From: an uncultured Leifsonia sp.
Lineage (GTDB): Bacteria; Actinomycetota; Actinomycetes; Actinomycetales; Microbacteriaceae
NCBI RefSeq assembly: GCF_945957465.1
Contig: NZ_CAMFLC010000013.1
Span: 1-64,000, forward strand
Direction of reading: 5' to 3'
Length of the DNA: 64,000 nucleotides
The position numbers were made by a program, and so were the translations under genes. The notes beneath the pieces were generated by a model. That model saw nothing but the letters and a program-made list of their open reading frames with translations, was not told where the DNA came from and searched no databases. The first letter of the stretch is position 1. The number at the start of each line of letters is the position of its first letter. This document shows positions 6,697 through 26,855 of the stretch, one piece after another.

Positions 6697-7491
6697 TCAG
6701 ACGCGCGCCGAGCGCACCGCCCGGGCGCTCCACCGCCCGTCGGCCCGCTCGACCCGGATCGGATGCTCGAACGCCGTCGTCACGGTCTCGGTGGTCACGG
6801 CCTCCTCGATCGGTCCCGCGGCGACGATCCGGCCGTGGGACAGCAGCAGGGCGTGGGAGGTGGTCTCCGGCAGTTCCTCCAGGTGGTGCGTGACGAGCAC
6901 GCTGGCGAGGTCGGGCGCCGAGGTCGAGAGACCGTCGATCGTCTCCAGCAACTGCTCGCGCGCCGCGACGTCGAGACCGGTGGTGGGCTCGTCGAGCAGC
7001 AGCAGTCGGGGATCGGAGATGAGCGCTCGGGCGATCAGAGCGCGGCCGCGCTCCCCCTGCGAGAGCGTCGGCCAGCGCGCGTCCCGGCGATCGTCGAGGC
7101 CGATGGCCGCGATCAGCTCGCGGGCACGCACCGACTCGCGGGGCGCGGCCTCCCAGCGCAGCGGCGGCTCGAGCGAACCGGTGAGCCCGGTGAGCACCAC
7201 CTCGGTGACCGTCAGCGGCGACCGCACCGGATGCCGCGGATTGACGTGACCGATGTGCCTCCGCAGCTCCTGCAACTCCACCCGGCCGAGCCGCCGGCCG
7301 AGCACGTCGACCGTGCCTGAGGTCGGGAAGGCGACGGCCCCGCAGAAGCCGAGGACGGTGCTCTTGCCCGCGCCGTTCGGACCGAGCAGCGCCCAGTGCT
7401 CGCCTGCCCGCACCTCGAACCGGATGTCGTCGAGGATGTGCCGCCCCTCGCGCCGGAACGTCACGTCGCGCAGCTCCAGCACCGTCTCCAT
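6697..7491 (-). CDS. ABC transporter ATP-binding protein (single-domain)
   Basis: 264 residues forming one nucleotide-binding domain. The Walker A GPNGAGKS is near residue 35, the signature LSQGERGRA is near 144 and the Walker B LLLLDEPTTGLD is near 163. A switch His occurs in LVTHHLEELP. Similar stand-alone proteins resemble ModF/PhnL-type or ABC-2-linked ATPases. No permease gene adjoins it, so its partner is either encoded elsewhere or absent. The start at 7491 is chosen over an upstream GTG/ATG extension because ELRDVTF, the usual N-terminal strand, begins right after it. A short GGAG lies just before the ATG. Confidence 0.85.
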   Translation of the reverse strand: METVLELRDVTFRREGRHILDDIRFEVRAGEHWALLGPNGAGKSTVLGFCGAVAFPTSGTVDVLGRRLGRVELQELRRHIGHVNPRHPVRSPLTVTEVVLTGLTGSLEPPLRWEAAPRESVRARELIAAIGLDDRRDARWPTLSQGERGRALIARALISDPRLLLLDEPTTGLDVAAREQLLETIDGLSTSAPDLASVLVTHHLEELPETTSHALLLSHGRIVAAGPIEEAVTTETVTTAFEHPIRVERADGRWSARAVRSARV

Positions 7492-9720: not shown

Positions 9721-10925
9721 CCGGCCTCGCGAAGGCGGGTCGAGCCGGTCTGCTGCGCGCGGTGATGGCGGGGGCCGCTGTGCTCGTGGTCGGCGGCGGT
9801 CTCGCCGCCTGCACCTCGGCGACCGCCGCCGGCGGCGCCTGCGACCAGTCGCACAAGCGCAACCTGGGCGTCGTCGCCGGAAGCACCGCGAACGCGCCGG
9901 CGGTCACGGTTCCCGCCAGCGCGTCCGCACAGCTGAAGGCGGTCGGCGAGAGCAACGGCAGCGTGACCGTCGTCATCCCGTCGGGCACCCCGCAGACGAT
10001 GGGGACCACCTCGATCGGGTCGAGCGCACAGGACGCCATCGTCTGCCAGAACGACCAGCGCACCAAGCTCACCCAGATCACGTCGTATCTCTCCGGGCTC
10101 AAGGCCGCGTCGCCGCAGGTCGACTTCCTCGGCGCCATCGACCAGGCCGCACGCGACCTCGGCTCGAATCCGCTCGGGGTGCTCGTCTTCGGCAGCGGCC
10201 TCCAGACGGCCGACCCGCTGAACTTCGCCGGGAGCGGCCTGCTCTACGCCGATCCGGCCCAGGTCGTCTCCGACCTGCGGTCGCGCAACCTGCTGCCGTC
10301 CGATCTGAAGGGCGTCACGGTCTACTGGTCGGGGATGGGAGACACCGCGGGAGCCCAGCAACCGCTGACCGTTCCAGCGCGCAGCAACCTCGCCGCGATC
10401 TGGACGGCCGTCATCAAGGCGGCGGGCGGCACGCTCTCCCTGCTGCCCGAGCCGGCCTCGGGAGGCGCCGAAGCCGGGCTGCCGGCCGTGACGCCGGTGC
10501 CGGTGGAGGCCGTGAGCACCAAGACGGACTGGTCGCGTCCGCTCGTCCTGCGCAACAGCGACCTGCGGTTCGTGAAGGACACGGCGACCTTCGCCGATCC
10601 GGCGGCGGCGCAGCAGCTGCTCGGCTCGCTCGCCCCCTCGATCGAGCAGAGCGGCGGAGTCATCACGATCACGGGCACGGCCTCCAAAGACCAGGCCACC
10701 GACAACACCGCTGACACCGCACTCTCGCTGCGGCGGGCGAACGCGGTCAAGGCCGCCCTGGTGGCGCTGGGCGTCCCGGACGCGAAGCTGGCGACCGCCG
10801 GCGTCGGCTACGAGTGGTGCGGCTTCACCAGCGAGACCGACGCCTCCGGCGCCTACTCGGACGCCCTCGCCGAGCAGAACCGCTCGGTCGTGCTCACCTC
10901 CGCGGGCGTCTCGCTCTGCGGCTGA
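9717..10925 (+). CDS. OmpA-domain lipoprotein, fourth gene of the operon
   Basis: 402 residues. The N-terminus is a lipoprotein signal peptide with lipobox LAAC (Cys near residue 31), so it should be anchored on the outer face of the cell membrane. A middle alpha/beta region, about residues 75-230, resembles a von Willebrand A-like fold (LGVLVFGSGLQTADPL, LKGVTVYWSGMG), but I see no clear metal-ion (MIDAS) motif. Residues about 270-400 match an OmpA/MotB peptidoglycan-binding domain. There, VITITGTASKDQATDN, SLRRANAVKAALVALGV and EQNRSVVLTS correspond to the usual strand, RA-helix and NRRV blocks. The Asp of the usual TD-x-x-G loop is not clearly conserved. The GTG start overlaps the upstream stop by four bases. 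Confidence 0.75.
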   Translation: MTGLAKAGRAGLLRAVMAGAAVLVVGGGLAACTSATAAGGACDQSHKRNLGVVAGSTANAPAVTVPASASAQLKAVGESNGSVTVVIPSGTPQTMGTTSIGSSAQDAIVCQNDQRTKLTQITSYLSGLKAASPQVDFLGAIDQAARDLGSNPLGVLVFGSGLQTADPLNFAGSGLLYADPAQVVSDLRSRNLLPSDLKGVTVYWSGMGDTAGAQQPLTVPARSNLAAIWTAVIKAAGGTLSLLPEPASGGAEAGLPAVTPVPVEAVSTKTDWSRPLVLRNSDLRFVKDTATFADPAAAQQLLGSLAPSIEQSGGVITITGTASKDQATDNTADTALSLRRANAVKAALVALGVPDAKLATAGVGYEWCGFTSETDASGAYSDALAEQNRSVVLTSAGVSLCG

Positions 10926-10951
10926 CGCCGCTCCCCGCGCGACATCGCCGC

Positions 10952-11008
10952 CGAGACGGCGCGAACTCGGCTCGGATCCGCCGGGAGGGTGGAGAATCAG
11001 CCGTCTCG
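10952..11008. other. Possible hairpin between convergent genes
   Basis: CGAGACGGC at 10952-10960 is the exact reverse complement of 11000-11008, with a 39-base loop, between the convergent lipoprotein and DUF5666-like genes. It could form a weak terminator. Nothing else is seen in this gap. Confidence 0.3.
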
Positions 11009-11018
11009 CAGCCGGCGG

Positions 11019-11816
11019 TCACACGGTCGGGGCGGGCGTGGGCACGGGCGTGGAGGTCGTGGAGTGCTTGGCTGCGAGGTGGGCGATGCGCGTAGCGGTC
11101 ACGCTGTCGCCGCTGCGCGCGCCGAGCACCGCGATGCGGTCGCCCACGGCGAACGAGGAGACGGTGGCCGGGCTCTTCGGCGTGCCGTAGGCCGTCGACG
11201 AATCGACCGTCACCGTGATGGTCGCGCCCGCGGCCGACCGGACGGTCCAGGTGTCGCCGGAGATCGCCGTCAGCGTTCCGACCGTGCCCTTGGCGTGCGT
11301 GCGGGCGCCGGCGCCCGTCGCGGCGTGCTTCGCCGTGCCGCGCAGCACCTGGTTCGAGGCGGCGGGGACCGCGGTGTTCGCGGCCGCGACAGCGGCGGAG
11401 ACGCCCCACGCGGTTCCGCCGGCCACCACCACGACCGCGAGGACGGCCGCCGCCACCCCGAGGCCGAGCGTGTGGCGACGGACGAAGGACGGGCGCGTCT
11501 GCGACTCCCCCGCCTTCATTCCGTCGGTGACCGCCATCCCGGGCGCCGGGGTCGTGGGCGCCCAGGTCGTCGGGGCCGGCGTCGGCGCGGGTGCGGCGTG
11601 TTGCTGCGCAGCCGGCCAGGCCAACGGGGTCGTCGGGAGGCCGTCCGGTTCGTGGTGCGCGTCCTGCTCCCACGGCAGCGGGGTCGTCGGGAGGCCGTCC
11701 GGTTCGTCGTGCGCGTCCTGCTCCCACGGCAAGGGCGTCGTCGGCAGGTCGCCGTTGTCGCTGTGGTCCATCTGCTCGCTCTGGTCGTCGCGGTCGCGCG
11801 GCTCGTCGGTGTCCAT
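11019..11816 (-). CDS. Single-pass membrane protein with DUF5666-like extracellular domain
   Basis: 265 residues. The acidic N-terminus contains an 18-residue repeat (DGLPTTPLPWEQDAHDEP) present a little over twice and encoded by 54-bp DNA repeats. A Pro/Thr linker follows, then a TM segment near residues 115-140 (LGLGVAAAVLAVVVVAGGTAWGV). The C-terminal domain (about 170-245) reads GTVGTLTAISGDTWTV, TITVTVDSSTAYG and VGDRIAVLGARSGDSVTATRI, the alternating strands of DUF5666-type OB-like domains. It ends in a Thr/Pro tail. Orientation is probably N-in, C-out. Its role is unknown. It sits directly downstream of the histidine kinase gene on the same strand with a 23-bp gap, so it may share that operon. 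Confidence 0.7.
   Translation of the reverse strand: MDTDEPRDRDDQSEQMDHSDNGDLPTTPLPWEQDAHDEPDGLPTTPLPWEQDAHHEPDGLPTTPLAWPAAQQHAAPAPTPAPTTWAPTTPAPGMAVTDGMKAGESQTRPSFVRRHTLGLGVAAAVLAVVVVAGGTAWGVSAAVAAANTAVPAASNQVLRGTAKHAATGAGARTHAKGTVGTLTAISGDTWTVRSAAGATITVTVDSSTAYGTPKSPATVSSFAVGDRIAVLGARSGDSVTATRIAHLAAKHSTTSTPVPTPAPTV
11625..11752. repeat. 54-bp tandem repeat, about 2.4 copies, within the DUF5666-like gene
   Basis: Two nearly identical 54-bp units (11625-11678 and 11679-11732) plus a partial third encode the 18-residue DGLPTTPLPWEQDAH motif in the cytoplasmic N-terminus of the membrane protein. Confidence 0.8.
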
Positions 11817-11839
11817 GCGCCAACGGTCTCAGCGTCAGA

Positions 11840-13210
11840 TCAGGAGCGCGCTCGGGACATGTCAGAGGAACGTAAAGTCACCCGGAAGACCGCTCCGCCG
11901 CCGTCCGCCGGTCCGGCGTCGATCGTCGCGCCGAGCCGGCCGGCGAGGCTGTGCGCGATCGAGAGTCCGAGCCCGGTGCCTACCGGACGTGCGCCGCGGT
12001 AGCGCGCGTGGAGGGCGCCGCGATCGAACGCCACCGGTGCGTCCTCGGCGCTCAGTCCGGGCCCCCTGTCGCGCACGGACAGCTCGACGAGCCCTGGGAG
12101 GCCGCGCGCGGTCACGACGATCTCCGACTCCGCCGGCGCGACCCGCAGCGCGTTCTCCACCAGCCCGTCGAGAATCTGCCGCAGCCGCATCTCGTCGGTG
12201 AGGACCCCGAGCGGAGCCGGTGGCAGGTCTGCCCGGAGTGCGACTCCGGCCCCGCCGCTCGCGCCCGACCAGGCCCGCAGCACCGCCGCGACGGTGTCGC
12301 GCGCGTCGAACTGCTGCGGCACGATCGTGAAGTCGTCGGCCTCCAGCCGCGCCAGCTCGAGGAGGTCGTCGACGAAGTGCCGCAGTCGCTCCGACTCCGC
12401 CGAGAGCGTCCGCCCGGCCTCCGCGACGCCGTCGGGCGGGATGACCCCGTCGGCGAGCGCCTCCGCGTACCCGCGGATCGCGGTCAGCGGCGTCCGGATC
12501 TCGTGCGAGACCGAGAGCAGGAACTCCCGCTGCCGGTCCTCGCTCGTCGCCAGGGCCGTGTCGAGCGTCCGCAGCGCCTGCGCGATGTCCTCGATCTCAG
12601 CGACCGGCTGCGCGTCGATCGGAACGCGCCGCCGCCCTCCGGCCAGCGCCCTGGCGCCGTCCGCGAGCCGTCGCAGCGGCCGGCCGAGGAGGCGCGCGAG
12701 CAGCACGCCCGCGGCCGTCGCGACCACGAGGCCGATGACCACGGCGAGCAGGATGCCGCGCAGCAGCTCGGCGTCGCCCGCGGCGATGTCGGCCACCTTG
12801 CGCACGCCGACGATGCCGCCGCCGTCCGCGCCCGGGATGCCGACCAGCACCGCGTCCCTGCCGTTCAGCGTCGTGGTCGTGGAGACCGCGCGTCCGGCGC
12901 GCAGCTCGCGCACCACGGCGGGGTCGACGAAGGCGCGCGCAGCGCCTGTGACCGCGCCGTCGGGCGAGACGACCGCGAACCGGTCGCCCACGACCGCCGG
13001 CCGAACGGCACCGGCCCGTCCGGATGCCAGCAGGGCGGCGGCCTGGGTCTTGAGCTGCTGGCGTGCCTGGTTCTCCTCCACGGTCTGCACCACCTGCACC
13101 GCGACGAGCGCCGTCACCAGCACGGCGATCAGCGCCACGGCGAACGTCACCAGCACGAAACGTCCGCTCAGCGAGCCGAGCAGGCGCCGCCGCGGCGCCG
13201 GCCCGGTCAC
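11840..13210 (-). CDS. Sensor histidine kinase of a two-component system
   Basis: 456 residues. One TM segment near residues 15-40 and a second near 155-180 bracket an extracytoplasmic sensor region with no recognised ligand domain. A HAMP linker follows, then HisKA with the phospho-acceptor His in SVSHEIRTPLTAIRGYAEAL (near residue 235). The ATPase domain has LVENALRVAP (N box), VRDRGPGL (G1) and GTGLGLSIAHSLA (G2). The GTG at 13210 overlaps the response-regulator stop by four bases (GTGA), so the pair is translationally coupled. The stimulus is unknown. The secreted DUF1996 gene is divergent from the pair. Confidence 0.88.
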   Translation of the reverse strand: MTGPAPRRRLLGSLSGRFVLVTFAVALIAVLVTALVAVQVVQTVEENQARQQLKTQAAALLASGRAGAVRPAVVGDRFAVVSPDGAVTGAARAFVDPAVVRELRAGRAVSTTTTLNGRDAVLVGIPGADGGGIVGVRKVADIAAGDAELLRGILLAVVIGLVVATAAGVLLARLLGRPLRRLADGARALAGGRRRVPIDAQPVAEIEDIAQALRTLDTALATSEDRQREFLLSVSHEIRTPLTAIRGYAEALADGVIPPDGVAEAGRTLSAESERLRHFVDDLLELARLEADDFTIVPQQFDARDTVAAVLRAWSGASGGAGVALRADLPPAPLGVLTDEMRLRQILDGLVENALRVAPAESEIVVTARGLPGLVELSVRDRGPGLSAEDAPVAFDRGALHARYRGARPVGTGLGLSIAHSLAGRLGATIDAGPADGGGAVFRVTLRSSDMSRARS

Positions 13211-13893
13211 GCTTCGTCCGCGACGCTGTAACCGACCCCGCGCACGGTGCGGACGATGCCTGCGGCGTCGCCGAGCTTGACGCGGAGCTGGGCGATGTGG
13301 ACGTCGACGGTTCGGCTGCTGGAGTAGTCGGCGACCCCCCACACCGACGAGAGCAGCTGCTCCCGGGTGAACACCCGGCCCGGCTGGCTCATCAGCCGGT
13401 CGAGCAGGTCGAACTCGGTCGCGGTGAGATCCACGCGCCCTGCCGCGGTCTCCACCCGCCGCCGGGAACCGTCGAGGTGCACACCGCCCACGCTGCGGGT
13501 CGGGGCCGCGACGGGTCCGGCCGCCCGGCGCACCATCCCCTTGAGCCGGGCGACGAGCTCGCGCGGCGAGAACGGCTTGGTGAGGTAGTCGTCGGCGCCG
13601 AGCTCGAGACCGAGGATCCGGTCGACCTCGTCGTCGCGCGCGGTGACGAAGATGACCGGCGTCCAGTCGTCCCTGGCTCGGAGGGTGCGGCAGACCTCGA
13701 TCCCGTCGAGCCCGGGGATGCCGACGTCGAGCACGATCGCGACCGGCCGCAGGCGGTCGATCGCGGCGAGCGCCTGCCGGCCGTCGGTCTCGACGTGGAC
13801 GCCGAAGCCCGCACCTGTGAGGTACAGCCGCTCCAGTTCCACGATCGCGGCCTCGTCCTCCACGACGAGCACCAGACCTCTCTCCTCGCCCAC
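13207..13893 (-). CDS. Response regulator, OmpR/PhoB family
   Basis: 228 residues. The receiver domain (1-120) has the acidic pair in VVEDE, the phospho-acceptor Asp56 in AIVLDVGIPG, and the conserved Lys in YLTKPFSPREL. The winged-helix DNA-binding domain (about 135-225) shows LTATEFDLLDRLMSQPGRVFTREQLL and the recognition helix SSSRTVDVHIAQLRVKL. It likely activates or represses nearby genes when phosphorylated by the kinase at 11840-13210. CAAGAT lies six bases before the GTG start, suggesting a leaderless transcript from a promoter facing away from the DUF1996 gene. Confidence 0.9.
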   Translation of the reverse strand: MGEERGLVLVVEDEAAIVELERLYLTGAGFGVHVETDGRQALAAIDRLRPVAIVLDVGIPGLDGIEVCRTLRARDDWTPVIFVTARDDEVDRILGLELGADDYLTKPFSPRELVARLKGMVRRAAGPVAAPTRSVGGVHLDGSRRRVETAAGRVDLTATEFDLLDRLMSQPGRVFTREQLLSSVWGVADYSSSRTVDVHIAQLRVKLGDAAGIVRTVRGVGYSVADEA

Positions 13894-14003
13894 CCGTCCA
13901 TCTTGACGGTTCGGGCACCCGCGCCACGCCGTTTCCCTGCCGCCTTACCGATTCTTTACATTCCGCTCTCACACCCCGAACCCGGAGGAGGTCGGATGGG
14001 CGC

Positions 14004-14951
14004 ATGATCTTCTCACTGCGTTCTCCCGCCGGCCTCGCCATCGCCTTCGGTGCGGCGCTCGTGCTCGCCGCCGGCACCGCCGCCGCGACGGCCGCGGGCG
14101 TGGCGGCGTCTGCGCCCGCACGCGTCGACACCGCGGGGTTCCCCTCCGGCGGCGCGAATCCCGGCATCTTCACCGACACCTGCACCCGGTCGAGAACCGC
14201 GCCGGACGATCCGATCATGATGCCGGGGATGACCGGGATGTCGATGCAGCACGACTTCTTCGGCAATCCGGCCGTGCGCGCGTCGTCGACCGCCGCGACG
14301 CTGCGGGGCGGGTCCACGACGTGCTCGACCTCCGCCGACGCCTCGGCCTACTGGACCCCGGTGGTCTTCCAGCACGGCCGGGCGCTCACCCCGCAGCGCA
14401 CGCTGTTGTACTGGCGCTCGCCCGGCCCGATCGCCTCGTCGACGCGCTCGATGCCGGAGGGCATCAGCCTGATCGCGGGGAACGAGACGGCGACCGCGCC
14501 GCAGAGCACCTCGGTCGTGGACTGGACCTGCACGACGACGGCCGGCCAGCGGGCGCCGCGGGGCGATCTGCCGCACGACTGCCCGGCCGGATCGCAGCTG
14601 CGGCTGGTCATCACGTTCCCGGACTGCTGGGACGGGCACACGATGGACGGCCGCGACCGCTCGGGCGCGGTGTACTCGACGGCGTCCGGGTGCCCCGCGT
14701 CGCACCCGGTGCACATCCCGCAGCTCGTGCTGCATGTCAGCTACCCCACGAGCAGCGTTGACGGCATCACCCTCTCGACCGGGCCGCAGACGCAGGGGCC
14801 CCCGGTGACGGGGCATGCCGATTTCGTGAGCGGCTGGCAGCAGGGCCGCATGGATGCCGACACGGCCGCCTGCGTGACCGCTCAGGTGCGCTGCGGCCCG
14901 GTGAGCGGCGCACAGGCCGCGCCGCGCGGCGGCAAGCCCGGCGACCGGTGA
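14004..14951 (+). CDS. Secreted DUF1996 domain-containing protein
   Basis: 315 residues with an N-terminal signal peptide (hydrophobic stretch near residues 10-32, Ala-rich cleavage region). Residues about 60-285 match DUF1996: MPGMTGMSMQHDFFGN, STTCSTSADASAYWTPVVF, LRLVITFPDCWDGH and CPASHPVHIPQLVLHVSYP. His and paired Cys residues are characteristic. The family occurs in fungi and actinobacteria and is secreted. Its role is not established. GGAGGAGG lies 12 bases before the chosen ATG, and a second ATG at 13996 opens only a three-codon frame. It is divergent from the two-component pair, which may control it. Confidence 0.82.
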   Translation: MIFSLRSPAGLAIAFGAALVLAAGTAAATAAGVAASAPARVDTAGFPSGGANPGIFTDTCTRSRTAPDDPIMMPGMTGMSMQHDFFGNPAVRASSTAATLRGGSTTCSTSADASAYWTPVVFQHGRALTPQRTLLYWRSPGPIASSTRSMPEGISLIAGNETATAPQSTSVVDWTCTTTAGQRAPRGDLPHDCPAGSQLRLVITFPDCWDGHTMDGRDRSGAVYSTASGCPASHPVHIPQLVLHVSYPTSSVDGITLSTGPQTQGPPVTGHADFVSGWQQGRMDADTAACVTAQVRCGPVSGAQAAPRGGKPGDR

Positions 14952-15013
14952 GACGGACCCGGAATCCGTCGCACCGAAGTCTGTACATTTCCATAGAAAC
15001 GCAACACAATGAC

Positions 15014-15038
15014 ATTACATGAGCCACCCTCATGTAAT
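15014..15038. promoter_or_regulatory. Perfect hairpin containing the start codon of the DUF4062 gene
   Basis: ATTACATGAG (15014-15023) and CTCATGTAAT (15029-15038) are exact reverse complements separated by CCACC. The gene start codon (15019-15021) lies inside the left arm. The hairpin could mask translation initiation, or the site could be a dimeric operator. The flanking sequence 14975-15015 is unusually AT-rich for this genome. Confidence 0.6.
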
Positions 15039-15813
15039 CCGGACACCCGATCAACGATTACGCATCTTCGTCTCGTCGACGCTGCAGGAGCTCGCCCCCG
15101 AACGCCGCGCCGCCAAGACGGCGATCGAGCGGCTGCACCTCGCCCCGGTGATGTTCGAGCTGGGCGCACGCCCGCACCCGCCCCGCGAGCTCTACCGCGC
15201 CTACCTCCAGCAGTCCGACGTCTTCCTCGGCCTCTACTGGGAGCGCTACGGATGGGTCGCCCCCGACGAGCACGTCTCCGGGCTGGAGGACGAGTACAAC
15301 CTCTGCCCCGACGACGTGCCGCGCCTGCTCTACGTCAAAGCGCCGGCCGAGCGCGACGAGAGGCTCAGCCGGCTGCTGAACCGGATCCGCGACGACGACC
15401 GCGCCGCCTACAAGTACTTCGAGACGCCCCGAGAACTGGCGGAACTCGTGGCGGCCGACCTGGCCACGCTCCTGGCCGAGCGGTTCGACCAGAGCCGGTC
15501 CGACCTCCTCGGCGCCGGCGCGGCGGGAGGCGCGGACGACGCCGGCGGCGCAGGCGGTGCGCCCGCAGCGCTCGCGGAACCGCGCTCGGAGCCCGATCCG
15601 GCGGTCGCCGATCCGGTGCGCCTGCCGACACCGCTCACCGACCTGGTGGGCCGCGAGGCCGACATCGCCGAGCTCCGCAGGCTGCTGAGCTCCGGCGCGC
15701 GCTTCGTCACATCACCGAGAGGTCGAGCCCGCGCGCTTGATAGATGCCCTCGACGACTTCGAAGAGCCCGTGCTTGGCGACCAGCTTCGACTGACGCCAG
15801 AGGCTCGGGTTGA
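15019..15813 (+). pseudogene. Truncated DUF4062 protein gene (STAND-type ATPase, 5' part only)
   Basis: The first about 230 codons are intact. LRIFVSSTLQELAPERRAAK, SDVFLGLYWERYGWV and GLEDEYNLCP mark a DUF4062 domain, a TIR/SIR2-like alpha/beta domain found at the N-terminus of large STAND NTPases. A linker leads to LTDLVGREADIAELRRLL, which in full-length proteins is followed directly by the P-loop of an NB-ARC-like ATPase and then TPR repeats. Here the homology stops at FVT (about 15710). The frame then runs 34 codons through unrelated sequence belonging to the opposite-strand alkyl sulfatase fragment. The ATPase and repeats are missing, so it is probably non-functional. Confidence 0.75.
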
Positions 15814-16021
15814 CCGAGGTGGGAGCATCGCCGTCGACGAAGTCGTACGCCGACGCATCCCAGACCACGGTGCCATCGGCATCGCGGATCACCGGGTCGG
15901 CCAGCGTGCCGAGGAAACCGCGGTCGGCGTCGTCGAAGTCGGCGGTGTCGTCGAACGGCAGCGCGCCGAGAAGCGCGGCGTTGGCCTCGGCGACCGATGG
16001 CGTCGGATCGTTCTGCTTCAT
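15707..16021 (-). pseudogene. Truncated alkyl sulfatase (SdsA/BDS1-type MBL fold) gene, 5' part only
   Basis: The first 104 codons match the N-terminus of alkyl sulfatases: ANAALLGALPFDDTADFDDADRGFLGTL, VVWDASAYDFVDGDAP, PSLWRQSKLVAKHGLFEVVEGIYQARGLDLSVM. In full-length enzymes (about 630-660 residues) the next segment begins the metallo-beta-lactamase domain with its zinc ligands. Here a TGA follows the Met directly, at the junction with the truncated DUF4062 gene. The ATG at 16021 has GGAGGAG upstream. Without the metal site it cannot hydrolyse sulfate esters. Confidence 0.75.
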
Positions 16022-16227
16022 GACGAGCTTCTCCTCCACGTCCACACGGCCCTGCGTCGCACCGTTACCGCAGAGATTTCCGTAGGGGCGGGGGCGGCGT
16101 CAAGACCCCGAGGGCCGCCGGGCAGCAGTGGTCGTCGGCCGGGTCGGTCGACTCGGGATGGGCGGGCAGGCCGGCGGCGTCGAACTGCCGCAGGTTCTGT
16201 GCGAGCAGTCGTTGCCCGACTCCGCGA
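16022..16227. other. Gene-poor stretch with a possible decayed coding remnant
   Basis: 206 bp between the alkyl sulfatase fragment and the isochorismatase-fold gene. On the minus strand one frame stays open with protein-like composition (QRLLAQNLRQFDAAGLPAHP, then DDHCCPAALGVL) to a stop near 16070, but it has no start of its own. It may be the tail of a lost gene, in keeping with the deletion next door. The promoter for the fragment probably lies here too. Confidence 0.3.
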
Positions 16228-16794
16228 TCAGCGGGAGGCGAGCAGCTCCAGGACCTCGCCGGTCGTGCCGAGCTCGCCCAGCTTGGGGAACTGGTAGGCG
16301 ACCGAGGCGTCGTGCGCTTCGGCGACGTCGGTCATCGCGTCGGTGACGAACGCCACGTGGTAGCCGAGCTCGTACGCGGAACGGGCCGTCGACTCGACAC
16401 CGGACGTGGTGGAGACGCCGGTCAGCACGATCTGCGTGGCGCCGGCCTCCCGGAGCCGGGCGTCGAGGTCGGTCGAGCCGAAGGCGCCGAGCGTGCGCTT
16501 GGTCACGGTGATGTCGCTCGGCTGCTGGTCGAGCTCGGGCAGCAGAGCGGTCGCCGCGGCGGGGAGGGTCTGGGCTCCGACCCGGCCGGTCGCCTTGCCG
16601 CGCTCGGTGCGGCCGGGCGCCGTCCCGTCGACGTTCACGAGCACGACGGGGAGGCCTGCGGCGCGGAAAGCGGCGGCGAGCCGGGCCGAGTTCGCGACGA
16701 TCTGCTCGATCGGGTGCGCGGTGGGCTGACCGAGGATGCCGGTCTGCAGGTCGATGACGACGAGGGCGGGGGTCGCTTCGAGTTCGATGCTCAT
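16228..16794 (-). CDS. Isochorismatase-fold hydrolase
   Basis: 188 residues, the full cysteine-hydrolase fold. The catalytic Asp15 is in LVVIDLQTG and Lys99 in VTKRTLGAFGSTDL. The cis-peptide and nucleophile block reads TGVSTTSGVESTARSAYELG, with Gly132 in the position normally held by the nucleophilic Cys. True isochorismatases also have Gly there, whereas amidases of this fold need Cys, so it is probably not a nicotinamidase. AGAGGA precedes the ATG. A MarR-family gene is divergent with a 96-bp gap holding an inverted repeat, so MarR control is likely. Substrate unknown. Confidence 0.85.
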   Translation of the reverse strand: MSIELEATPALVVIDLQTGILGQPTAHPIEQIVANSARLAAAFRAAGLPVVLVNVDGTAPGRTERGKATGRVGAQTLPAAATALLPELDQQPSDITVTKRTLGAFGSTDLDARLREAGATQIVLTGVSTTSGVESTARSAYELGYHVAFVTDAMTDVAEAHDASVAYQFPKLGELGTTGEVLELLASR

Positions 16795-16850
16795 GATGGG
16801 TCCTCTGCGGTGATGCGTCCAGCGGGATGCGAACGTCAGTGGCCATAATA

Positions 16851-16865
16851 ATCAGCTCAACTGAT
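16851..16865. promoter_or_regulatory. Inverted repeat between the isochorismatase-fold and MarR genes, likely MarR operator
   Basis: ATCAGCTCAACTGAT has perfect 5-bp arms around a 5-bp centre. It lies just upstream of TATGAT (16879-16884), itself six bases before the marR start codon. Binding there would block the marR promoter and could affect the divergent gene. Confidence 0.5.
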
Positions 16866-16890
16866 GGTTTGCTCACGCTATGATCGGCGC

Positions 16891-17343
16891 ATGACCAGCA
16901 CGACGCCCCCGGCCGCCGAGCCACTCGGCCCGCTCGTGAAGAAGGTGCACCTGAGGCTGCTGGAGCTCTCCGACGAGGCGCTCGCCCCGTCCGGGTTCGA
17001 CCGGCGCGAGTACGCCGTGCTGCGCGCCCTCATCCCCCACGAGCCGCTGTCGCAGCAGGCCCTGGCGGCGCTGCTCGGCGTCGACCAGACGACGATGGTC
17101 GCCGTCATCGACTCCCTGGAGGCGAAGCAGGCCGTCACCCGCCGACCCGACCCCGCCGACCGCAGGCGCAACGCCATCGAGGCGACGCCGGCCGGCCGCG
17201 CGGCGTTCCGCCGTGCCGAGCACGACTTCCTGGCCGCCGAGCGCGCGTTCCTCGCGCCGCTGGGCGATGCCGGCGCCGAACGCTTCCGCGCGGCCCTCCA
17301 CACCCTCCTCGAGAGTACTCCCGCCGCGCCGAAGGGCGCGTAA
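16891..17343 (+). CDS. MarR family transcriptional regulator
   Basis: 150 residues. The winged helix is clear: FDRREYAVLRALIPHEPLS, QQALAALLGVDQTTMVAVIDSL (recognition helix) and TRRPDPADRRRNAIEATPAG (wing with the D-x-R-R motif). The ATG at 16891 follows TATGAT by six bases, so the message is probably leaderless; an in-frame ATG at 16864 lies upstream of that promoter. The last codons (APKGA and stop) are formed by the left arm of palindrome family A copy 2. It is divergent from the isochorismatase-fold gene, its likely target. Confidence 0.88.
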   Translation: MTSTTPPAAEPLGPLVKKVHLRLLELSDEALAPSGFDRREYAVLRALIPHEPLSQQALAALLGVDQTTMVAVIDSLEAKQAVTRRPDPADRRRNAIEATPAGRAAFRRAEHDFLAAERAFLAPLGDAGAERFRAALHTLLESTPAAPKGA

Positions 17344-17389
17344 ACGCCCCTAAAACGGCGTTTTAGGGGCGATAAGGCGCCCCTCGGCG
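17327..17389. repeat. Compound palindrome, family A copy 2
   Basis: The outer arms at 17327-17339 and 17377-17389 match with one G-U-type mismatch. The inner hairpin is perfect: a 12-bp arm CGCCCCTAAAAC (17345-17356), a three-base loop, and its reverse complement (17360-17371). It lies between the convergent marR and YdeI-family genes and includes the marR stop codon. Further CGGCCCCTCGG-like short repeats follow to about 17416. Confidence 0.85.
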
Positions 17390-17417
17390 GCCCCTCGGCG
17401 GCCCTTCGGCGGCCCCT

Positions 17418-17987
17418 CTACTGCGGGTGCGGCGTCTCCCCGCGTTCGAGCATCGCGATGAGCTTCGCGAGGCGGTTGCCGCGGCTGATCGCGCTCGGTG
17501 CGGTCATCAGACGATGCAGCACCGAGTACCGATTGGCCGCGTTCAGTGTGGCGAATGCGGCGGCGGCCGCCTCCGACACCTCGAGCGCGGCGGTCAGGTC
17601 GTCCGGGATCTCCGCGGTGCGCGGGCTCGCGTAGGCGCGCTCCCACCGGCCGTCGGCCTTCGCGCGCTCGATCTCGGCGTGGCCGCGTTCACGCATCCGG
17701 CCCTCGGCGATCAGTGCCTCCACGAGCCCGATGTTGCGCTGCGACCAGAGCGAGGCCGCCCGCCGCGGTGTGAACCGCTCCAGGAACGTGGTCTCGTCGC
17801 GGCTGCGTTTCTGCCCGTCGATCCACCCGCTGCACAACGATTCGTCGACCGCCTGCGCATAGCTGAGGGAGGTCGGCTGAGTCGTGCCCTTCTTGGCCAG
17901 CACCAGCCACACGCCGTCGGAGCTGTCTTCGTGCTCGTCGAGCCAGGCACGCCAGGCGGCGGCGTCCGCCACGATCAGTTCGTCCAA
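17418..17987 (-). CDS. YdeI/OmpD-associated family protein
   Basis: 189 residues. Recognised from WLDEHEDSSDGVWLVLAKKG, SYAQAVDESLCSGWIDGQKR and FLERFTPRRAASLWSQRN near the N-terminal half, and from IPDDLTAALE near residue 140. Together these are typical of the YdeI/OmpD-associated (bacteriocin-protection) family. The family is linked to antimicrobial peptide tolerance in enterobacteria, but its role in actinobacteria is not established. The start appears to be a TTG at 17987 with GGGGAG upstream, an uncommon start codon. It is monocistronic and convergent with marR. Confidence 0.8.
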   Translation of the reverse strand: MDELIVADAAAWRAWLDEHEDSSDGVWLVLAKKGTTQPTSLSYAQAVDESLCSGWIDGQKRSRDETTFLERFTPRRAASLWSQRNIGLVEALIAEGRMRERGHAEIERAKADGRWERAYASPRTAEIPDDLTAALEVSEAAAAAFATLNAANRYSVLHRLMTAPSAISRGNRLAKLIAMLERGETPHPQ

Positions 17988-25690: not shown

Positions 25691-25992
25691 GTTGCTCCTT
25701 ATTCCTACAGTGACGGGGTCGTGGCCCTGGGTGATCGTGGTGGGAGGCCCTCGGGAGAGTGCCCCGTAAAGACCCTACGGGTCCGCCGCGGCTCGCGCTA
25801 CGAGGGGCGTCCCCTCACCGGAAGATCCACGTGACCAACGCGGATCGAAGGGCGCGTAAACGCCCCAAAAAGGGCGCTTTAGGGGCCCCAACTCGCCCTT
25901 CGAGGGCAGTATGCGGCCCTCACGTCAGATCCGGGTGCCGCGGCGACAGGGGTGGGAGGCCGCGGCACCCGTGGTCGGTGGCCGGACGCCGG
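25691..25992. other. 302-bp intergenic region: promoter of the dehydrogenase gene plus palindrome
   Basis: Contains the ribosome site and presumably the promoter of the dehydrogenase gene on the left. A short hairpin GAGGGGCGTCCCCTC is at 25802-25816 and palindrome family A copy 3 at 25845-25903. No open frame here looks like a gene. Confidence 0.5.
25845..25903. repeat. Compound palindrome, family A copy 3
   Basis: The outer arms TCGAAGGGCG (25845-25854) and CGCCCTTCGA (25894-25903) are exact reverse complements. The inner hairpin pairs GCCCCAAA with TTTAGGGGC with one base bulged. Here the flanking genes are in the same direction (both minus), unlike the other copies. Confidence 0.75.
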
Positions 25993-26373
25993 CTAACCGA
26001 GCGCTCGGGCCTTCAGATGGTCGAACTCCTGCTGCGTGATCGCTCCGGAGGACAGCAGCTGCTGCGCTTTGGCGATCTCGTCCGCCGGGCTGGTCGACGA
26101 CGTCACATCGCGGATGTGCGCGTCGACGGCGGCCTGGGTGTCGGCGGCCTCCTTCATGTTGCGCTCCGCCATCCCGCGTCCGCGGGCGATGAGGTAGACC
26201 AGCGCGGTGAGGAACGGCACGAAGACCAGGAAGATGATCCACACCGCCTTCCACCAGCCATTGAGCTTGTGGTCACGGAACAGGTCGCCGATGATCGCGA
26301 ACAGCGCGAACAGATACGCGACGAACGCGAAGCACCAGAAGAACGTCCACACCACGCTCCAGAAGTTGTTCAT
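25993..26373 (-). CDS. PLDc_N/SHOCT domain membrane protein
   Basis: 126 residues. Two TM segments at about 5-30 (WSVVWTFFWCFAFVAYLFALFAII) and 40-62 (WWKAVWIIFLVFVPFLTALVYLIA) form the phospholipase D N-terminal-like (PLDc_N) hairpin, which ends in RGRGMAERN. A C-terminal SHOCT helix pair (about 96-125) reads DEIAKAQQLLSSGAITQQEFDHLKARAL. It is a common actinobacterial membrane protein of unknown role. The ATG at 26373 is chosen over one five codons earlier because GGAGGG lies six bases upstream of it. Confidence 0.82.
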   Translation of the reverse strand: MNNFWSVVWTFFWCFAFVAYLFALFAIIGDLFRDHKLNGWWKAVWIIFLVFVPFLTALVYLIARGRGMAERNMKEAADTQAAVDAHIRDVTSSTSPADEIAKAQQLLSSGAITQQEFDHLKARALG

Positions 26374-26506
26374 GATGGCCCTCCCCACTGCGGCCGGCCA
26401 ACTGCCGGCGACGGGAATGTAACTCCTCGGCCCACCGTCTGGCTACACCCGATCGCGTGGAGCATCCTGTTCGCCTGTCCGACCCGGCCGGCGGTAGCTT
26501 TGGACC

Positions 26507-26800
26507 ATGGCCGACCTGCCCGACGCGCTCCCCGCCGATTACGATCCCGCGCACGTCTTCCGCGTCGTGGCGATGCCCGTCGAACGCGGCTGGGGCATCT
26601 GGCTCCGGGCCGCCGACGACGGCATCATCCACAGCTTCGGGCTGGGGGTACCGCCGGAGAAGCCGTTCCGGCCGGATGTGCTCGACGTCCTGGGGCCGAT
26701 CCTCAACCTGCAGTACCGCCTCGCCTACATGGACGACGCGGCGTGGGATGAGATCGACAACCACTGGTCGGCGGTCGTGTACGAGTACACCCCGCGCTGA
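26507..26800 (+). CDS. Hypothetical protein, 97 aa
   Basis: Small soluble protein of unknown family, rich in Trp, Tyr and Asp (DYDPAHVFRVVAMPVERGWG, LQYRLAYMDDAAWDEIDNHW). The composition and lack of gaps suggest a real gene. TAGCTT sits six bases before the ATG, fitting a leaderless transcript. It ends 55 bp before the SDR gene on the same strand, which has its own ribosome site. Confidence 0.65.
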   Translation: MADLPDALPADYDPAHVFRVVAMPVERGWGIWLRAADDGIIHSFGLGVPPEKPFRPDVLDVLGPILNLQYRLAYMDDAAWDEIDNHWSAVVYEYTPR

Positions 26801-26855
26801 GGCGCGTCAGTCGACCCACCTGCGAAGGGCAGGCGGCGAGTGGGAGGATGACACC

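Follow-up and report, generated by a model that had tools for sequence, protein, structure and literature searches.

A very probable recent deletion between a DUF4062 STAND-type gene and a convergent alkyl sulfatase gene in a Leifsonia genome

A 2026 preprint assigns the DUF4062 domain to a family of TIR-like NADases and describes an antiphage system of this family, Swarozyc (PMC13174449). In KpSwz, the Swarozyc protein described there, the domain is joined to an auxiliary winged/HTH part with which the protein binds the phage portal, and the authors of the preprint liken animal DUF4062-STAND proteins to APAF-1 (PMC13174449). By membership of this family, the label "immune-type" is plausible for the bacterial DUF4062 gene considered here (PMC13174449). 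The counterpart of that gene at the same locus in Leifsonia sp. Leaf336 (L004:8001-10667) encodes a DUF4062-NB-ARC-TPR protein of the STAND, NLR-like kind, which carries NB-ARC and TPR parts instead of the winged/HTH domain of KpSwz; it has nearly the same upstream block as our copy and 87% identity to it over the retained part. Our copy shares a Pfam domain and a weak sequence match (E 0.05, residues 11-86) with KpSwz, and differs from it in lacking any Pfam match beyond DUF4062. For the event that shortened it, the nearest described likeness is the set of nonhomologous end-joining (NHEJ) scars of Streptomyces, which are kilobase deletions with micro-homologies of 1-6 nt in 50% and nucleotide addition in 40% (PMC5869714); those breaks were experimentally induced, whereas a single scar of natural origin is the basis for the mechanism suggested here.

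The window, by which we mean the whole 64,000-nucleotide stretch of DNA that was analysed, takes up the first 64 kb of its contig (76 kb), part of a 4.06-Mb genome whose nearest named relatives are Leifsonia. Leaf336 (contig L004; G011 in the genome set) served as the main reference, and presence and absence were counted over 28 genomes, the window genome and 27 others. Window positions 11784-15710 align with L004 4753-8665 and positions 15709-16085 with L004 12252-12625, collinear on either side of the junction. In the BLASTN comparison, 15601-15710 falls on L004 8556-8665 and the next match begins at 15709, so that the two sides overlap by 2 bases, in keeping with an initial annotation that had placed two broken gene ends within about five bases of each other. 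Reckoned from the alignment end points, 3,588 bp of Leaf336 are absent from the window, and they hold residues 222-888 of the 888-aa DUF4062-NB-ARC-TPR protein, a 25-bp intergenic stretch and everything from residue 105 onward in the 623-aa alkyl sulfatase. The features around the junction are as follows.

14980..15018, plus strand: conserved block just 5' of the DUF4062 start codon, perhaps a promoter (on conservation only); 2 of 39 bases differ from Leaf336
15019..15708, plus strand: 5' remnant of the DUF4062-NB-ARC-TPR (STAND) gene; 230 codons that include the entire DUF4062 domain and stop short of the expected P-loop
15709..15813, plus strand: new 3' end of the DUF4062 open reading frame, opposite the sulfatase remnant; stop at 15811-15813; mostly low pLDDT
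15708..15711, no strand: deletion junction, with AC (15709-15710) common to its two sides
15707..16021, minus strand: 5' remnant of the alkyl sulfatase gene; 104 of 623 codons, stop TGA made by the junction, frame readable from 16045

The plus-strand frame 15019-15813 (264 aa) matches PF13271 (DUF4062) at residues 15-94 with a Pfam E-value of 2.7e-19, and Pfam gave no match beyond it, neither NB-ARC nor TPR; this is the sole DUF4062 match of its genome. It tracks the 888-aa Leaf336 protein as far as RFV(T), at 15708-15710, where Leaf336 continues with LVGPGGIGKS, the P-loop. The gene had been called recognisable up to FVT at about 15710 with a P-loop expected next, and the Leaf336 sequence bears this out: the window copy lacks the P-loop, the TPR part and, but for its first residues, the NB-ARC match (210-394). 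A predicted structure of the 264-aa frame (mean pLDDT 74.5, pTM 0.62) has a complete domain at residues 14-169 and lower confidence beyond it, and the predicted DUF4062 domain is a complete alternating beta-alpha, TIR-like or nucleoside deoxyribosyltransferase fold. In fold comparison the model matched Rcl/DNPH1 and TIR chains and, somewhat less, flavodiiron chains; KpSwz was absent from the matches in the library, which ran to April 2026. Residue E92, at the start of the third helix, is invariant in all 37 aligned sequences (the window and 36 of 77 related loci), and may correspond to the catalytic glutamate E97 of KpSwz. In a 2023 copy of PADLOC, which is older than the 2026 DUF4062 preprint, the intact Leaf336 protein matched weakly, through TPR, whereas neither the sulfatase nor the window stub had a match, and a literature search on the name Swarozyc returned no match, which the accented letters of the name in print may explain.

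The 39-base block upstream of the start codon is much the same in the related loci L117, L118 and L119 as well, and a sigma-70 consensus scan found no site. Across the start codon, at 15014-15038, lies a perfect 10-bp inverted repeat (ATTACATGAG, a 5-bp loop, CTCATGTAAT), which could be an operator or a start-site hairpin. It is identical in Leaf336, has arms of 7-8 bp in L117, L118, L119, L006 and L012, and was not found at that place in the other 6 of the 13 sequences tested. A separate irregularity was seen at a related locus of Microbacterium sp. Leaf288 (L064 8001-10900), where a second, partial copy in another frame overlaps and follows a DUF4062 start and a third start lies at the end of the contig, a pattern that suggests recombination between tandem copies.

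On the minus strand, the frame 15707-16045 tracks the Leaf336 alkyl sulfatase (L004:10693-12564; PF00753, PF14863, PF14864) with an N-terminus that matches at about 90%, down to LSVM at residue 104, and ends in a TGA at 15707-15709 that the junction created. The Lactamase_B match in the Leaf336 protein spans residues 100-321, and so the claim that the sulfatase is recognisable up to SVM, at the start of its metal-binding domain, also stands: only the first few metallo-beta-lactamase residues are left, and both later domains are gone with residues 105-623. Pfam found no family on the 112-aa stub frame, nor the metallo-beta-lactamase catalytic domain. Of the 28 genomes, 18 have a sulfatase homologue of full length (49-100% identity); of the remainder, the window genome has the stub, G020 has the gene split in two frames, G025 has only a relative at 31%, and seven have none at the threshold used. 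In G020 (C1:189101-190968) the split falls around residues 273-281.

The initial annotation had explained the paired truncation by a single deletion with both ends inside the two genes, and had proposed comparison with closely related genomes. That comparison supports the deletion through the 3,588-bp gap, the collinear flanks and four relatives, Leaf336 (G011), G006, G007 and G021, that keep the convergent pair intact; in the last three the same two genes lie in the same order, with no internal stops and with the DUF1996 and GNAT neighbours of Leaf336. A 301-bp query over the junction placed the break points about 3.5-3.6 kb apart in these four, and among the matches listed the two sides adjoined in none of the 27 other genomes. 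A short pair conserved among relatives, which the annotation had named as evidence against a deletion, was therefore rejected. The full-length DUF4062 gene has a homologue in 19 of the 28 genomes, and the window genome has nothing but the fragment.

The annotation's alternative, in which an assembler or a chimeric read joined two ends while the real chromosome carries the intact pair, draws on the draft state of the assembly, which is in 112 contigs. That assembly is nevertheless rated 99.75% complete, and the absent 3.6-kb segment was not found elsewhere in it among the 40 of 648 first-look candidates that were scored, which speaks against a misjoin; beyond the two window ends, those candidates yielded no more than three short matches, of 30-162 bases at 70-93% identity, on contig C19, where two long genes look by eye like genes for P-loop/LuxR-type proteins. 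An assembler cannot join contigs on a 2-base overlap, and the overlap here is far below the length of assembly k-mers. Neighbours, order and orientation on both sides are, moreover, those that a deletion would leave, and the adjoining GNAT gene is also cut. We therefore regard a misjoin as unlikely. Transfer of the segment to another place in the genome was considered and set aside on the same search, and the genome has no second DUF4062 match.

What remains, a real, recent and lineage-private deletion of 3,588 bp (in Leaf336 coordinates) between two convergent genes, is very probably correct. A tree built from three neighbouring genes places the window near Leaf336, G017 and G008, with a support of only 70 for grouping Leaf336 with G017 and G008, and shows the intact pair in an outgroup clade (G021, G007, G006) and in Leaf336. 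On this distribution the long pair is ancestral and the window lineage lost DNA. The reverse polarity, an ancestral short pair to which the relatives added long genes, found nothing in its favour; it would have to account for proteins cut mid-frame at domain edges, for full genes at the same place in Leaf336 and the outgroup clade, and for full-length homologues that are common in the genus, and it can be given almost no credence. G017 and G008 keep the sulfatase and have no DUF4062 gene at the locus, and the neighbouring DUF1996 gene is a stub in G008, with none shown in G017. Because these two genomes lost their copies in their own way, the DUF4062 gene, judged by this gene content, is lost at least twice, in the window and in G017/G008 separately. 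G017 has a different DUF4062 match elsewhere in its genome, on a 420-aa frame.

The annotation had also noted short shared sequence, TCAC/CACAT, at the junction, and this did not hold. The bases common to both sides are AC (2 bp, 15709-15710) in the window or GAC (3 bp) in the relatives, which is within chance: when pairs of points separated by 3.0-4.2 kb were drawn at random from the Leaf336 locus, at least 2 bp were shared in 22% and at least 3 bp in 8.6%. The left side of the junction reads GTGAC in four of four intact relatives and the right side GAC in six of six, against CAC in the window, whose C at 15708 stands where relatives have G on both sides and needs an extra change. The join may thus have had AC in common, or GAC before a change, or one base changed or added. 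Strong microhomology was rejected (Leaf336 has GTGACC on the left and GACATCACC on the right), and since 2-3 common bases are not above chance, they are no proof of a microhomology mechanism and leave the join mechanism weakly supported. End joining is plausible as the route because the genome has Ku and LigD-polymerase genes (Ku lies on contig C10, with one of the four LigD-polymerase matches next to it) and because the junction resembles the Streptomyces scars. As in an end-joining deletion scar, its flanks are collinear, the loss is private, the common bases are few and the genome has Ku and LigD-polymerase genes.

The sequence of events that we propose is that one deletion end fell in the DUF4062-NB-ARC-TPR gene just before the P-loop and the other in the alkyl sulfatase gene, right where its metallo-beta-lactamase domain begins, and that end joining, by Ku/LigD or by another route, would have closed the double-strand break with 2-3 bp in common or one base changed. 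Both genes probably lost their function as a result. The plus-strand stub could still be produced as a DUF4062 domain on its own, which, having neither the ATPase nor the TPR parts, should not respond to its normal signal.

Decay of the two stubs was looked for and not seen: neither has internal stops or frameshifts, and their dN/dS values are like those of intact copies. For the DUF4062 part, dN/dS is 0.17 on the window branch (95% CI 0.10-0.31, from 200 codon resamplings, as for all these intervals) and 0.13 (0.06-0.23) on the Leaf336 branch; for the sulfatase part it is 0.10 (0.02-0.23) on the window branch and 0.18 (0.05-0.60) on that of Leaf336, and for both stubs the interval of the difference includes zero. 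Because the frames are unspoilt and these values resemble those of intact copies, the deletion is probably recent. If the stubs have been free of constraint from the deletion onward, the time elapsed makes up a small share of the branch, no more than about a fifth by arithmetic on the upper bound of dN/dS.

Continued selection on the stubs would look the same in dN/dS, which leads to the reading that the plus-strand stub still works as a short gene, its DUF4062 domain standing alone and kept under selection after loss of the ATPase and TPR parts. The whole predicted TIR-like fold, the kept E92, the conserved upstream block and the dN/dS of 0.17 on the window branch would all suit it, but a recent deletion predicts the same dN/dS, and the new tail lies opposite the sulfatase stub in a mostly low-confidence part of the prediction. 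No such short form was seen in other genomes either: among 29 DUF4062 matches in the 28 genomes only that of the window lies on an open frame below 400 aa, and the 77 related loci comprise 70 whose open frame is 807-925 codons long, three that run off their contig and four that are frame-broken with STAND sequence following. A selected short form is for these reasons very unlikely, and a fresh remnant is the simple answer.

The main junction is followed within 1.7 kb by three further junctions relative to the relatives.

16109..16124, no strand: second junction; GNAT 3' end absent, in a loss that measures about 80 bp against G017 and 117 bp against G008
16128..16226, minus strand: GNAT acetyltransferase stub; residues 148-180 of 213, 33 codons, 70% identity
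16222..16226, no strand: third junction; about 447 bp with the GNAT 5' part absent before the isochorismatase gene
17343..17418, no strand: fourth junction (against Leaf336 and G017), whose SDR and TetR genes are absent here

The GNAT gene is whole in Leaf336, G006, G007, G021, G017 and G008 and has lost both ends in the window, where 16128-17418 holds its stub and then intact isochorismatase and MarR genes. At the third junction the two alignments overlap by 5 bases (5/5 and 4/5 matching). No SDR/TetR match was found at this spot in G006, G007 and G021 either, and the difference may therefore be a gain in Leaf336 and G017 rather than a loss in the window. Since these junctions crowd into 1.7 kb, against gaps of at most 220 bases between Leaf336-aligned blocks from position 1 to 15.7 kb, the main deletion, as comparison with relatives places it, is in a locally variable stretch where genes are being cut. 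At the same spot G008 (L122) has stubs of an SDR gene (6981-7070, 30 residues) and of the DUF1996 gene (10901-11257, 119 residues). Farther along the window, at 25804-26840, collinearity with Leaf336 breaks again, with 12.8 kb and 18.5 kb of Leaf336 lying between matches that adjoin in the window.

The event is ordinary gene loss, caught early, and a clear example of a chromosome losing a probable immune-type gene, in which one cut removed most of two genes and left readable stubs. In this clade the DUF4062 gene seems dispensable or costly, because a sister pair of genomes lost it another way. As the stub retains the whole predicted domain, E92 and the nearly unchanged 39 bases upstream, a lone DUF4062 domain may be made from it. 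There is a slim chance that the deletion thereby made a natural effector-only allele, with a predicted folded TIR-like NADase domain and its upstream control block and without the ATPase/TPR switch; were that so, the cell would either tolerate it as inert alone or use it, and either outcome would tell whether the switch part turns the enzyme on or holds it off. Because the cut falls between the DUF4062 domain and the P-loop of the ATPase switch, the stub is a ready natural construct for testing the domain alone.
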